The notes under the pieces: model-generated
The model's input: only the letters and a program-made list of their open reading frames with translations
Database searches by the model: none
What the model was told of the DNA's origin: nothing
Assembly (NCBI GenBank): GCA_030950285.1
Contig: JAUZRR010000011.1
Coordinates: 1 to 64,000, forward strand
Direction: 5' to 3'
Origin: Planctomycetota bacterium
GTDB lineage: Bacteria; Planctomycetota; Phycisphaerae; Phycisphaerales; UBA1924
Length of the DNA stretch: 64,000 bases
In this document: positions 43,484 to 51,714 of the stretch, in pieces
Layout: the number at the start of each line of letters is the position of its first letter
How positions within the stretch are numbered: the first letter of the stretch is position 1
Translations under genes and position numbers: made by a program

Positions 43484-44755
43484 CTATTTAGATGGCTCGG
43501 TCAGTCGGCTCACAGCCGCGTCGTGGTTCACCGGCCAGCGCTGGCTGAGACGCACGTCGTGCCCCTTGCCCCAGCCCCGGCTGCTGGTGCCCCAGTGGTT
43601 CGCGGGCCACCCGAGCGAGAACTCTCGCAGGTGCATCCCTGCCTGCTCGCCTTCCTTTGGCGCGCGCCAGTCCCGTTTGGATTCGTAGGTTGCGGTCGTC
43701 CAGGCGGTGGGGCCGGCAACATCTGTCATCATCCCTTCGAGGTCTTTCTCGAGCTGCGCCCCGGACTCGTACGCCCGGTAGGGGCTGATCGCGACGCGCT
43801 GGCCTTGGAGTTCCAGGAAGTTGCCGTGCTCGTCGAGCCCGCCGGCGTCCTCGACATAGGGATACGCCTCTTCGAGCATCGCCCGCAAGGGCAGCCGGGG
43901 CGGGACCTGATCGAACGGGCCGTCGTACCAGGTGTTCTGGGCGATCTCGCGGCGGCTCACCCCGACCAGAATGTATCTCCCCGTGGGGGCGTGCCTGACA
44001 AAGCAGAACCTCGACCGCTCGCCGAACCATGTCTCGACCCTTGCGGACTCGCCTCGGACCCACGCTTCCGGGCGCGGCTTGCGGTCGTCGAGCACATAAT
44101 AAAACGCCCGGCCGGGTTTGTAATAGAGCAGTTGCAAGAAATACCCCGATTCGTCGCGCACGCCGGTGACGTGCTCTTCGCCGGGCAGGAGCGGGAACCC
44201 GGGCGGCTCGAGCGCGGAGCGGTCGAGCACGAAGACCCGCGAGAGGCCGTCGACGCTGAGCGACACCTCGCCGGTCTGGGCGTTGTAGTGCATCGAGACG
44301 CCCTCCCGGCCGTGCTTGAAGTGCCCGACCATCATCTCGCGCTGGCTGTAGGCGTCGAAGTAGCCGACGCTGAACCGGCCGTCCTCGGCATCGGCAAAAC
44401 GGATGTTGCCGCTCACAACACGGGGCCCGAGCGGGAACGTGTAGTAGTAATACCGCTCGGTCGGGTACACGACCGCCCGCTCGGGGGCGGCTGCCATGAC
44501 GAACCGGAGCACGCTCCGAGGATCATCGAAGCTCGGCTCCGAAACGGGGCCCGTCGGGGTGACACCGAGGCTCGTCTCATCACCTCGACGTACCTCGCTC
44601 GAACGCAGCGACAGCTCATTAAGAACAATCCAACCCGAGCTCGGTACGGCACGCTCTGCACCGCATCCGGTACAAATCAATGCACCGATATAGATTGTCC
44701 ATCCCCAAACCACATACGTGAGAGGCCTCAGGCAACATATCTTGGAAAGAATCAT
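43484..44755 (-). CDS. Exported protein with C-terminal WPxxH repeats (third gene of cluster)
   Basis: 423 residues. A hydrophobic signal segment ends at a Cys-rich site (ALICTGCGAE), which could be a lipoprotein attachment but lacks the usual residue at -3. The main body (about 45-370) is a beta-rich domain with many Tyr and Arg; I do not recognise it. The last 40 residues carry three short repeats: GWPANHWGTSSR, GWGKGHDVRLSQ and RWPVNHDAAVSR, matching the repeat unit of the two upstream genes. The ATG at 44755 overlaps the stop of the middle gene as TGATG, so translation is coupled to it. Function unknown; the shared repeats suggest it belongs to the same assembly. Confidence 0.8.
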   Translation of the reverse strand: MILSKICCLRPLTYVVWGWTIYIGALICTGCGAERAVPSSGWIVLNELSLRSSEVRRGDETSLGVTPTGPVSEPSFDDPRSVLRFVMAAAPERAVVYPTERYYYYTFPLGPRVVSGNIRFADAEDGRFSVGYFDAYSQREMMVGHFKHGREGVSMHYNAQTGEVSLSVDGLSRVFVLDRSALEPPGFPLLPGEEHVTGVRDESGYFLQLLYYKPGRAFYYVLDDRKPRPEAWVRGESARVETWFGERSRFCFVRHAPTGRYILVGVSRREIAQNTWYDGPFDQVPPRLPLRAMLEEAYPYVEDAGGLDEHGNFLELQGQRVAISPYRAYESGAQLEKDLEGMMTDVAGPTAWTTATYESKRDWRAPKEGEQAGMHLREFSLGWPANHWGTSSRGWGKGHDVRLSQRWPVNHDAAVSRLTEPSK

Positions 44756-46122
44756 CACCACGGCCAATCAAAGAACCAGTCGCGGAGATCGTTGGCTGTA
44801 GTCCACCATGAGTGGTCCGGGGGGAACACAGGCCAACCGCCTGAATCCGGATCACCCCAGGACTCCGAAATCGGAACTGTGTGCCCGGGAGGCCAGGACG
44901 GCTGGGGACCGGGCCATTCTCCGGAAATAATATCGAGATGCCCCGGCGGGTAGTACACGCTGGTTCCCATGTTGTGATCAGGACCCCAGTTATTCGAGAT
45001 CACCGACTGGTGATTCGGCGGCCACCGACTCTGCGAACGGTCGGTCTCGTGGACCCAGGTCTCGGTCCATGCCGTACGATGGTACGGGGGCATCTTCATC
45101 TGGAGCGAATCTGAATAGTAATGGTTCGGCCACCAGATCCGTGAAACTGTCGGCTCGTGCTCAGGCGGCATCGGACGACTCGACGAGGCCTGTTCTATGT
45201 GCCCGGGAGGCCAGGCCTTACTCACACTCGTTTCGTGGTAGGGGTCATCGGAATAGGTGACGAAGATGAGATGCCCGCCACGCGGAGGAAGCCATGTATT
45301 GGAAGCATACCAGATGTGGTTGGCCGGCCACTGCTTGCTTACTTCATACTGATGAGGACCGGTCGGCGTTGTTTTCGAGGCCCAGGCCTCGTGATCCCCG
45401 TCCGGATCCTCGCCGTCGTAACTTGCCGAAATGTTCCAGAGATGGTTCGGGGACCACCAGCCCGGGCGGTCCGGCGGCCACGTGTCGCTCACGCCCGACA
45501 GGTGCGTGTCCGGGGCACATCCCGAAGCCATGAATGCCTCTCGCCCGTGGGAGACAATGTATCCCATGTACTCGGCTGCCAACCGTGCCGCCTGGTCGAT
45601 ATCGTAGTTGCTCACTTCCTCACCGAATCGGTCGACGGTCACGAGCAGGTCCTCGGCGTTCACGTCGCCGTCAAAGTTAAGGTCGCCTTCGACATCCCCT
45701 GCGGCGACCGCCAGGAGCGTTTGTTCGATATCTGCTGCGCCAACGGCTCCCTGCGCATCCGGGGCGGTCTTCCCGAACGCCCCTTTCATCAAGAAACCGA
45801 TCGCCGTGACGATATCTTCAGACGTCTCGATCCCGTCCCCGTCCAAGTCTCCAACATCCAGATCGGGGCCGTACAACTCGGCCATCCGGTCCATGAGCAA
45901 CATGACAACATCCACATCACTCACGAGACAGTCGTTGTTGAGATCTGTCATCACCATGCTCGACCGCGACATGAACCGCGTCACGCCGGTCCGGTCTGGC
46001 GCGCCGTACTGGGCTGCGACAGACGCCGCCGTGACGGTAGTTCCGATCACACTGGTCATGATGTACGGCTTCGCACCCGCACCAAACCGGCCGGTTCGGA
46101 TCTTCCGACAATACTTCTTCAT
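44755..46122 (-). CDS. WPxxH repeat protein with EF-hand/dockerin-like motifs (middle gene)
   Basis: 455 residues. A basic N-terminus with a possible signal (AKPYIMTSVIGTTVTAASVAAQ) is followed by EF-hand-type segments DLNNDCLVSDVDVV, DLDGDGIETSEDIV and DLNFDGDVNAEDLLV. From about residue 215 to the end there are some 15 short repeats of the form H-x-x-x-[VI]-S-x-x-W-P-x-[NGD], for example PPGHIEQASS and PPNHQSVISNN. The start ATG at 46122 has AGGAGGA at 46131-46137, a very good ribosome binding site. The stop overlaps the next gene. Its promoter contains a run of 17 G between -35 and -10. No enzymatic motif is visible; a surface or matrix role is inferred. Confidence 0.85.
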   Translation of the reverse strand: MKKYCRKIRTGRFGAGAKPYIMTSVIGTTVTAASVAAQYGAPDRTGVTRFMSRSSMVMTDLNNDCLVSDVDVVMLLMDRMAELYGPDLDVGDLDGDGIETSEDIVTAIGFLMKGAFGKTAPDAQGAVGAADIEQTLLAVAAGDVEGDLNFDGDVNAEDLLVTVDRFGEEVSNYDIDQAARLAAEYMGYIVSHGREAFMASGCAPDTHLSGVSDTWPPDRPGWWSPNHLWNISASYDGEDPDGDHEAWASKTTPTGPHQYEVSKQWPANHIWYASNTWLPPRGGHLIFVTYSDDPYHETSVSKAWPPGHIEQASSSRPMPPEHEPTVSRIWWPNHYYSDSLQMKMPPYHRTAWTETWVHETDRSQSRWPPNHQSVISNNWGPDHNMGTSVYYPPGHLDIISGEWPGPQPSWPPGHTVPISESWGDPDSGGWPVFPPDHSWWTTANDLRDWFFDWPW

Positions 46123-46168
46123 GACAGGCGTCCTCCTGTTTCCGCTACGAAAGAGCGGCGACCTGCCG

Positions 46169-46199
46169 AGCATACCCCCCCCCCCCCCCCCTGTGTCAA
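46169..46199 (-). promoter_or_regulatory. Putative phase-variable promoter: TTGACA - CA + G17 - TATGCT
   Basis: On the minus strand TTGACA (46199-46194, perfect -35) is followed by CA and 17 consecutive G (46191-46175), then TATGCT (46174-46169, good -10). The spacer is 19 bp, two longer than the 17-bp optimum. Losing two G would restore the optimum, gaining G would weaken it. The -10 lies 46 bp upstream of the middle repeat-protein ATG. Homopolymer spacers of this kind control on/off switching of surface proteins in pathogens such as Neisseria. The exact G count may be affected by sequencing. Confidence 0.75.
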
Positions 46200-46287
46200 G
46201 CCGTATTCTGAAAGACAACACGGAAACTGCCTCAGCCGTTTCGAGAGCATCGGATTGATCTGGAGTCTTTGTGGCTTGCCGAGAGTC

Positions 46288-47307
46288 TCATCTTCCCGAC
46301 GCCGGTCTGCCCCACGATTCCGACACCGTCCCGACGTGCCCGGCCGGCCATGTGGGCTGCGGCCGGGTCCATGTTTCGGATACCTCCCCGGAATGCCCGG
46401 GCGGGTAGCGCTTGTCCGCGGCCTTTTCCTTATCCTTCCAGGTCTCCGAGACATCCTGCGTGTGGTTCGGCGGCCACCGGCTCAGCGACGGTGCGGTCTC
46501 GTGTGACCAGGTCATCGAAAGGTCGTCAAGGTGCTCGGGGGTGAGGAGCCTCATCGAGTCCCAATACCTGTGGTTCGTCCACCAGACACGCGAGACAACC
46601 GGGTTGTGGTCGTCGGGGTATGTCGAGGTGATCTCTTGCAGGTGGCCCGCGTGCCAGTACTTGCTGACACTTTCCTTGTGGTACTCCGGCGGCTCGGTGT
46701 CGGGCGACCGGGCGCGGCGTTTGTTGGGGGTGGCGGGGGGGAGCCACGTGCTCGAGGCGTACCAGAGGTGGTTGGCCGGCCACTGGCTGCTGATGTGTGT
46801 TTGGTGGGGCGCGGTGGGGTGGCGGCTGGAGGTGTACGAGAGGTGCTCGAGGGGGTCGGCTTCCTTGCCTTCGTACCTTGCCGAGATGTTGACGAGGTGG
46901 TTGGGCCGCCACCAGCCGGGGTGGTCGGCCGGCCATGCGTTGCTTGCGTCGGTCAGGTGCGTCTTTGCGGCGTCTGGTTGCTTCTCGGGCTGGCGGTGCG
47001 TTGCCTCGATGCGCGTGCCGAGCGCTGCGGCGGCGTGCCGCGCGGCGAGTTCGATATCCGTTGTTGCCCCGGGCGACTCTCGCAGCAGTTGCTCGATCGC
47101 GGCGACGATGTCTTCGTAGGTCCGGGCGCCGTCGCCGTCCTGGTCGCCGACCGCCAGGTCCGGGCCGTAGCGCTCGGTCAGCCGATCGTGGAGGGCAGCG
47201 ATATCCACGTCGTCCGCGTCGCCCACGTCGGCAGCGGCTGATGCGGCGATGCCGACGAGCGCCGCGGCGGCACACTGTCGGGCCAGAATGGCAGGATAGT
47301 GCTTCAT
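46288..47307 (-). CDS. WPxxH repeat protein with dockerin-like motif (first gene)
   Basis: 339 residues. A clear signal peptide (MKHYPAILARQCAAAALVGIAASAAA), an EF-hand-like segment (DLAVGDQDGDGARTYEDIV), a short linker, then about 13 repeats of the WPxxH type (RWPPNHTQDVSETW, TWPAGHVGTVSESW) through to the C-terminus. The order of variant repeats matches the middle gene one by one (PGWWRPNH, QWPANHLWYAS, VWWTNH, TWSHET), so the two arose by duplication. No good Shine-Dalgarno precedes ATG 47307. Upstream lies a tandem family B-related repeat. The gap of 165 bp to the middle gene contains the latter's own promoter. Confidence 0.85.
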   Translation of the reverse strand: MKHYPAILARQCAAAALVGIAASAAADVGDADDVDIAALHDRLTERYGPDLAVGDQDGDGARTYEDIVAAIEQLLRESPGATTDIELAARHAAAALGTRIEATHRQPEKQPDAAKTHLTDASNAWPADHPGWWRPNHLVNISARYEGKEADPLEHLSYTSSRHPTAPHQTHISSQWPANHLWYASSTWLPPATPNKRRARSPDTEPPEYHKESVSKYWHAGHLQEITSTYPDDHNPVVSRVWWTNHRYWDSMRLLTPEHLDDLSMTWSHETAPSLSRWPPNHTQDVSETWKDKEKAADKRYPPGHSGEVSETWTRPQPTWPAGHVGTVSESWGRPASGR

Positions 47308-47364
47308 CTTGCGTGCTCGAAGAATGCCGGACCAGAACAGACCCGACGGTTGCGTTCCAGGCTT

Positions 47365-47425
47365 TGCCAACGCGGGCTGGAAAGCCCGCTCCCCTGGAGT
47401 TGCCAACGCGGGCTGGAAAGCCCGC
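47365..47425. repeat. Tandem palindrome upstream of the WPxxH cluster
   Basis: Two direct copies with 36-bp period of a unit containing TGCCAAC followed by a perfect palindrome GCGGGCT, GGAA, AGCCCGC (47372-47389 and 47408-47425). The core GGCTGGAAAGCC is a family B relative. Confidence 0.9.
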
Positions 47426-47460
47426 CCCCCCGTATGGTTCAGAGGCTCCCGTCGCAGAGA

Positions 47461-47853
47461 CTACCCCATCTGAACCGGATCAAACGCCACGGCGAAGTCG
47501 TAGACGGCCATGAAGTCTTCGAGGGTGTCGTCTTCGGTTTTACGCATGAGCCCGACCTCGACCATCGCAAAGACGATGCGGCCGAAGTCGTCGGTGGTGT
47601 AGAGGCCCCAGTGCTCCAGGACGGTGCGGGCAAGGCGGCCGTAGCGTTCGATCGCGTAGTCGCGCAGTCCCAGGCAGAGCTCCTGGCCGCTGACGTGCTT
47701 GGACTCGTCGGACGCATCGCCGCGTTGGCCTTCGCCGTGGGACATCTCGACGGCGTGGGCAAGCCCGTCGCGGACGAACTGGAACGCTTCGCGGGGGAAG
47801 GGGCCGGCGATCGCGCGCATCTTTTGCCAGTCGACTTTGATGGTGTCGGACAC
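47461..47853 (-). CDS. Minf_1886 family protein
   Basis: 130 residues matching, from memory, the Minf_1886 (TIGR04138-type) family of Planctomycetota and Verrucomicrobiota: FVRDGLAHAVEM, HVSGQELCLGLRDYAIERYG, DDFGRIVFAMVEVGLMRKTEDD. Role unknown. GTG at 47853 with GGAG about 10 bp upstream is the preferred start; the frame is open to 47937 but begins inside low-information sequence. Confidence 0.8.
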   Translation of the reverse strand: MSDTIKVDWQKMRAIAGPFPREAFQFVRDGLAHAVEMSHGEGQRGDASDESKHVSGQELCLGLRDYAIERYGRLARTVLEHWGLYTTDDFGRIVFAMVEVGLMRKTEDDTLEDFMAVYDFAVAFDPVQMG

Positions 47854-47946
47854 GGGTACTGCTCCGGAGGTCTTCGGCCAAAGCGGGTCCGCCCGCCGGG
47901 CTCTCAGTATTCTACGCGCTTCGGCCCGGGCGGCCAAAGGTTCCCG

Positions 47947-51570: not shown

Positions 51571-51619
51571 GTGTGGTGTCGGCGGGGTGTCCTTGTTCGT
51601 CTGTTGCACGTGGTGTCCT

Positions 51620-51714
51620 GCCCCCTCGCTTGCGCGAGAGGCTCTATGAAAGACAAGGGACGAGAACAAGAGACAACGAACGCAGTAGAGCCCCTCGCGC
51701 AAGCGAGGGGACAA
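51620..51714. repeat. Family A palindromes, inverted pair
   Basis: Reverse copy at 51620-51647 (CCCCCTCGC, TTGC, GCGAGAGGCTC; one arm eroded) and perfect forward copy at 51685-51714. Convergent gap between the OmpA-like gene and nadD. Confidence 0.9.

Follow-up and report, generated by a model that had tools for sequence, protein, structure and literature searches.

The tract promoter of the window gene

The window, which is the whole 64,000-nucleotide stretch of contig JAUZRR010000011.1 analysed here, carries on its minus strand a gene (P0001) whose promoter has a spacer consisting largely of G (Table 1). The bases CA (46193-46192, minus) lie between TTGACA and the 17-G tract and bring the spacer to 19 bp, and the ATG (46122-46120, minus) is found 46 nt past TATGCT. 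The initial annotation had described TTGACA, CA plus 17 G, TATGCT, a 19-bp spacer and AGGAGG; on re-reading, both the letters and the coordinates are exact. The locus thus has a homopolymer of at least 8 bp (G17) between -35 and -10, as in promoters of the porA/opc type. No divergent gene is present at the window locus, which is one-directional and does not have a tract shared by two genes as in hifA/hifB.

Table 1. Promoter and gene features at the window locus, and promoters of orthologs of the window gene
Feature	Position	Strand	Description
-35 element TTGACA	46194..46199	minus	6/6 consensus match; kept as TTGAC[AG] in orthologs
17-G tract	46175..46191	minus	Bulk of the 19-bp spacer; putative site of slippage; read from the sequence, with same-place tracts in orthologs
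-10 element TATGCT	46169..46174	minus	Read from the sequence; TANNNT enriched after TTGAC-tracts
Shine-Dalgarno AGGAGG	46132..46137	minus	Read from the sequence; 9 nt 5' of ATG
P0001, target gene	44755..46122	minus	455 aa; signal-peptide-like N-terminus, two dockerin/EF-hand-like pairs, tandem WPPxH/HxxxxS repeats
Upstream paralog	46288..47307	minus	339 aa; 47% identity to P0001 in the repeat part; without own tract promoter
G001 ortholog promoter			TTGACG-caac-G9-agt-TATCCT
G002 ortholog promoter			TTGAC-G17-ATACT (tract about G17)
G038 ortholog promoter			TTGACG-ctc-G18-TAATTC
G048 ortholog promoter			TTGATT, C10 tract, then TATTCT
G005 (HBSAPP03) ortholog promoter			Without tract; 17-bp spacer, TTGACA-N17-TAGCAT

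The second-longest G/C run in the 64-kb window has a length of 10, compared with 17 for the promoter tract. Run counts drop approximately 2.5-fold with each added base; extrapolated to a 17-mer, this gives an expectation of about 1e-3, so that chance would not be expected to produce the tract. The exact motif TTGACANN-G10 has one copy in the 3.1-Mb genome to which the window belongs, and the reversed motif has none. A generic sigma-70 scan, which allows spacers of 16-18 bp, finds no promoter near P0001 because the spacer here is 19 bp. Directly 5' of the ATG, positions 46122-46139 may form a short hairpin (ACAGG-AGGACG-CCTGT), the loop of which holds most of the Shine-Dalgarno sequence.

The N-terminus of P0001 combines positive charge with a hydrophobic stretch that ends in VAAQ, so that the protein is predicted to be exported; a surface or exported product is characteristic of porA/opc-type promoters. 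The calcium-loop pairs precede the repeats, and the earlier proposal of an exported tandem-repeat protein as target is borne out. A Pfam search with P0001 gives no match; within the set of genes behind tracts, some members have matches to a GC-type dockerin model. The AlphaFold model of P0001 is confident only at approximately positions 65-200 and poor across the repeats. The paralog upstream is context and not a component of the proposed switch. Upstream of the paralog gene, positions 47357-47428 hold two tandem 36-nt copies, 89% identical, with the palindrome GCGGGCTGGAAAGCCCGC, which resemble REP sequences. An inverted repeat at 51619-51713 (28-nt arms, 93% complementary, with 39 nt between them) is perhaps a small mobile or REP-type element.

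Orthologs and changes in tract length

We studied the window's own genome and its relatives by pattern searches and by reading selected stretches of sequence; the relatives include Planctomycetota PNC22, Dive96_bin4.162, Phycisphaeraceae H1_PLA1, UBA11155, HBSAPP03 and IP29b_bin.111. P0001 alone as query found no matches on the genome contigs, and an alignment of orthologs as query did find matches. The DNA upstream of the orthologs in G001, G002, G038 and G048 has diverged, and the boxes and the tract are retained: tract lengths at the window gene and its orthologs are G17, about G17, G18 and G9, with C10 in G048. The gene preceding the G001 ortholog matches the gene at 47461-47937 of the window, so at least this pair of loci is syntenic. 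The mutS gene of G001 (PNC22; C1:1418657-1421402) is split across several frames. The organism may be a natural mutator, or the assembly may contain indel errors, and the G9 length is therefore doubtful to the base. In the tract-free ortholog of G005 (HBSAPP03), four near-copies of a 14-nt unit (GGGCTGGCCCGGRT) lie between promoter and gene (L058:1380-1460).

A check put forward with the initial annotation was whether the tract varies among relatives while the boxes stay fixed, and this is what we find. In three congeners (L150, L312 and L313), the promoter reads TTGACAGATGTAC-Gn-TAGGGT with n = 11, 9 and 9 and flanks that are ~90% identical. A G12/G9 difference is the sole indel in 348 nt of near-identical DNA in L172 and L315, giving spacers of 16 and 13 bp. 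As these two sequences are labelled as two genera and yet nearly identical, one of them may have been misbinned, which would leave the difference in tract length in place. Paralogs within single genomes also differ, with G11 and G12 in G019, G18 and G9 in G036 (upstream stretch 92% identical), and G11 and G12 in G070. Length variation of the porA/opc type is thus seen at sister loci in close species and paralogs, and among orthologs of the window gene with diverged flanks. Because these comparisons, with one genome per species, are between different genomes or gene copies and not within one clone, they demonstrate that the tract is mutable and not that it switches in a population. Most of the genomes compared are metagenome assemblies, in which homopolymer lengths are error-prone.

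Tract promoters recur across the family

Of the 42 G/C runs of at least 10 nt in the window's own genome, 10 qualify as promoter spacers under one fixed promoter criterion, and none does in the reversed sequence. The corresponding figures for the complete chromosome of G038 are 12 of 66 and none. The placement of tracts between the boxes is therefore not due to chance. An eleventh candidate in the own genome was recognized by eye (C61; TTGCAC-tc-G18-TAGTCT).

The pattern of a -35 box, a G-tract and a -10 box occurs at 118 sites, counted as listed places, in 60 of 163 genomes of the family, compared with one site for the reversed pattern. Of 99 tracts preceded by TTGAC, 63 are followed by a TANNNT box no more than 5 nt away, compared with 7 of 107 other G-tracts. 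The motif TTGAC-N1-9-G9, searched in 101 relatives, shows enrichment in the own family and, beyond it, in a small number of families of the same order; these counts are of distinct sites, with overlapping reverse-strand matches left out. A survey across the phylum outside the own order gives mostly single matches, with nearly as many in controls, and we therefore make no claim for the phylum as a whole. The window site is one of a large class of promoters and not an isolated case.

Very long or compound poly-G and poly-C stretches (33 to 58 G; 26 G beside 24 C) are also seen in L043, L048, L037, L258 and L241, near contig ends and even within a complete chromosome. In L241, TTGACA and TATGTT flank a G/C block of ~70 nt.

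Spacer lengths

Tract-free promoters of the same gene families served as our comparison, as the background of non-tract TTGACA...TANNNT sites in the sampled loci is too sparse for a spacer statistic. All 11 have spacers of 16-18 bp, indicating that spacing matters. Among tract promoters, 45 of 76 spacers fall outside this range (P = 1.5e-4, Fisher's test), extending from 13 to 24 bp and more. The remaining spacer bases hardly compensate for the length of the tract (r = -0.15, P = 0.09, permutation). Such a wide spread with little compensation is what slippage around an optimum would leave.

Over all tract promoters, the spacer distribution peaks at 16 and 19 bp, with few at 17, which a simple model with 17 bp as the ON state does not predict. 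Five of the 10 tract promoters in the own genome have spacers of exactly 19 bp; a poly-G spacer may therefore have an optimum of its own, longer owing to a shorter rise per base pair. ON and OFF are accordingly not readable from length alone, and the initial annotation's statement that the promoter should be weak at its present length of G17 is only an inference.

Genes downstream and two-way promoters

The families of genes downstream of tract promoters comprise exported proteins of ~380 aa (family A, 11 in the first set), pseudopilins (matching the N_methyl, GspG/GspH and Verru_Chthon cassette D models), P0001-like proteins, small Cys-rich exported proteins, and MauE/DoxX-like membrane proteins. 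By a heuristic of N-terminal hydrophobicity, 50 of 75 proteins downstream of tracts look exported, compared with 16 of 46 window genes (P = 7e-4), for which the gene calls are crude. Few of the tract-downstream proteins match Pfam (58 proteins, 14 families), in contrast to window genes, of which 10 were searched and 9 gave a match. When family A homologs are collected by protein and not by tract, 14 of roughly 27 with readable upstream DNA have a tract of at least 8. Some tracts in this family are of G and others of C, which speaks against a G structure tied to one strand.

In two relatives, a pair of overlapping divergent promoters has a single tract as its common spacer, an arrangement of the hifA/hifB type. 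In L175 (1190-1235), the sequence reads TTGACAGAATA-gt-G13-TATTCTGTCAA, with 20 bp each way and a perfect 11-bp inverted repeat around the tract; in L231 (1185-1230), the shared spacer is 19 bp each way. Both boxes are present on both strands at each site, and the two divergent genes encode a Cys-rich exported protein and a pseudopilin.

A slippage-variable promoter and its alternatives

We consider it highly probable that the window tract is the spacer of a slippage-variable promoter of the sigma-70 type, comparable to those of porA and opc, and that it belongs to a family-wide set within one lineage of Phycisphaerales, driving mostly exported proteins. This agrees with the phase-variable promoter proposed at the outset, which the fixed boxes with changing tracts in relatives and paralogs support. 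Slipped-strand mispairing during replication would add or remove G-C pairs in the tract, and so change the distance and the helical phase between the -35 and -10 boxes. The altered spacing would in turn leave the gene for the exported protein at higher or lower transcription in different cells. The promoters of the set would mostly act on secreted, pilin-like or surface-associated proteins, and where two divergent promoters share a tract, a single slippage event would alter both genes. As the design recurs throughout the family with lengths that differ between close relatives, these bacteria probably vary the expression of the genes behind tract promoters at random, in the manner of some pathogens. 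Against a switch, the own genome encodes MutS; this protein reduces slippage in long runs without preventing it altogether, and it is present in most phase-varying bacteria. The unexpected spacer peaks described above also speak against a simple switch.

The most serious competitor, which we nevertheless regard as unlikely, is neutral expansion: in a GC-rich genome, unconstrained spacer sequence would let G/C runs grow by slippage, adding length noise to accessory genes without any selected switch. Long runs are indeed also found outside promoters, in other intergenic and in coding places, and promoters account for 9/19 and 9/38 of intergenic runs, no overwhelming excess over a guessed share of intergenic DNA. 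Tracts nevertheless recur at the same position, in both polarities, in homologs with only 30-60% protein identity; they favour exported proteins; and the narrow 16-18 bp range of tract-free relatives implies that spacing matters. An improbable reading is that the poly-G spacer is a fixed structural element, either A-form-like DNA or the site of a MerR-like activator that needs 19-20 bp, with a length not meant to vary. The own-genome promoters at exactly 19 bp fit this, but the full range of spacers, the use of either G or C, and the existence of homologs without a tract do not.

There is very little chance, in our view, that variation acts on translation instead, through a gene start upstream of the tract from which slippage would shift the frame. 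An open frame with a GTG at 46221 does pass in frame through the tract, and similar open frames exist in G002 and G038. The -35 box would then fall inside the gene, however, and AGGAGG and the signal-peptide-like start lie downstream of the tract, as do the Shine-Dalgarno sequence and start codon in the G002 and G038 orthologs and at most other sites. An artefact of sequencing or assembly, such as poly-G from two-color chemistry or collapsed or inflated homopolymers, is equally hard to credit. Some contigs do end in poly-G of a length that is hard to believe (58 G at C44; 15+28+33 G in C42), and for 11 of 83 tract sites a contig end is less than 150 nt away, a figure that fits real heterogeneity and homopolymer difficulty alike. 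The window tract, on the other hand, is internal and lies between matching boxes, and independent projects, complete chromosomes among them, show it again in orthologs; an artefact could alter the exact length but not the architecture.

Relation to known systems

Taking the slippage-variable promoter as the preferred reading, its nearest counterparts are found in Neisseria, where the tract in the porA promoter is poly-G. The N. meningitidis porA promoter varies in the spacing between -35 and -10 (van der Ende 1995, as cited in PMC5084427). Like the window promoter, it has a G homopolymer between the two boxes and serves a surface protein, and its spacing sets its strength. It belongs to another phylum, whereas the planctomycete tract is longer and has many counterparts in one lineage. 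N. meningitidis opc has a poly-C promoter (Sarkari 1994, as cited in PMC3447861), for which 11 C give low and 12 C high expression (PMC3447861). For both genes, change of promoter spacing by slipped-strand mispairing is established, according to the references in PMC5084427 and PMC3447861. The opc promoter likewise contains a C/G homopolymer and its product is an outer-membrane protein; it differs in phylum, in its shorter tract, and in that the planctomycete lineage has many such promoters, with both polarities in one gene family.

The fim2 and fim3 genes of Bordetella pertussis, which encode surface fimbriae, carry poly-C in their promoter regions and depend on BvgA. The C tract in the promoter region is a shared feature, but the activator BvgA acts there, whereas the planctomycete promoter has no known activator site. 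In hifA/hifB of Haemophilus influenzae the repeat consists of TA dinucleotides. One repeat tract lies in the combined promoter region of these two divergent genes (van Ham 1993, as cited in PMC11868660). The two-way promoters of L175 and L231 resemble it in sharing a tract between divergent genes, and differ in that the tract is a G/C homopolymer.

Most known cases of phase variation through simple repeats come from pathogens and commensals adapted to a host. If our reading is correct, variation through homopolymer spacers would extend to environmental Planctomycetota, a phylum for which we, in line with the initial annotation, found no earlier report in the open-access literature, although such absence is not proof. 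This would suggest phage, predator or biofilm pressure, and not immunity, as the driver. We lean, with less assurance, towards a wider interpretation as well: a promoter-based phasome in a free-living, mostly uncultured family of Planctomycetota, in which promoters with G/C-homopolymer spacers, as many as a dozen or more in one genome, would stochastically set how strongly secreted Cys-rich proteins, pseudopilins and dockerin/WPPxH proteins are expressed, and in which palindromic two-way promoters would let one slippage retune two genes.

The genes behind tract promoters also provide candidates for secreted proteins used in bet-hedging. Two kinds of product found repeatedly at these promoters are MauE/DoxX-like membrane proteins and small exported proteins rich in Cys (L041, L107 and L189, with L028, L104 and L191). 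Since MauE-type proteins elsewhere aid the maturation of disulfide-rich partners, the two groups may be functional partners.
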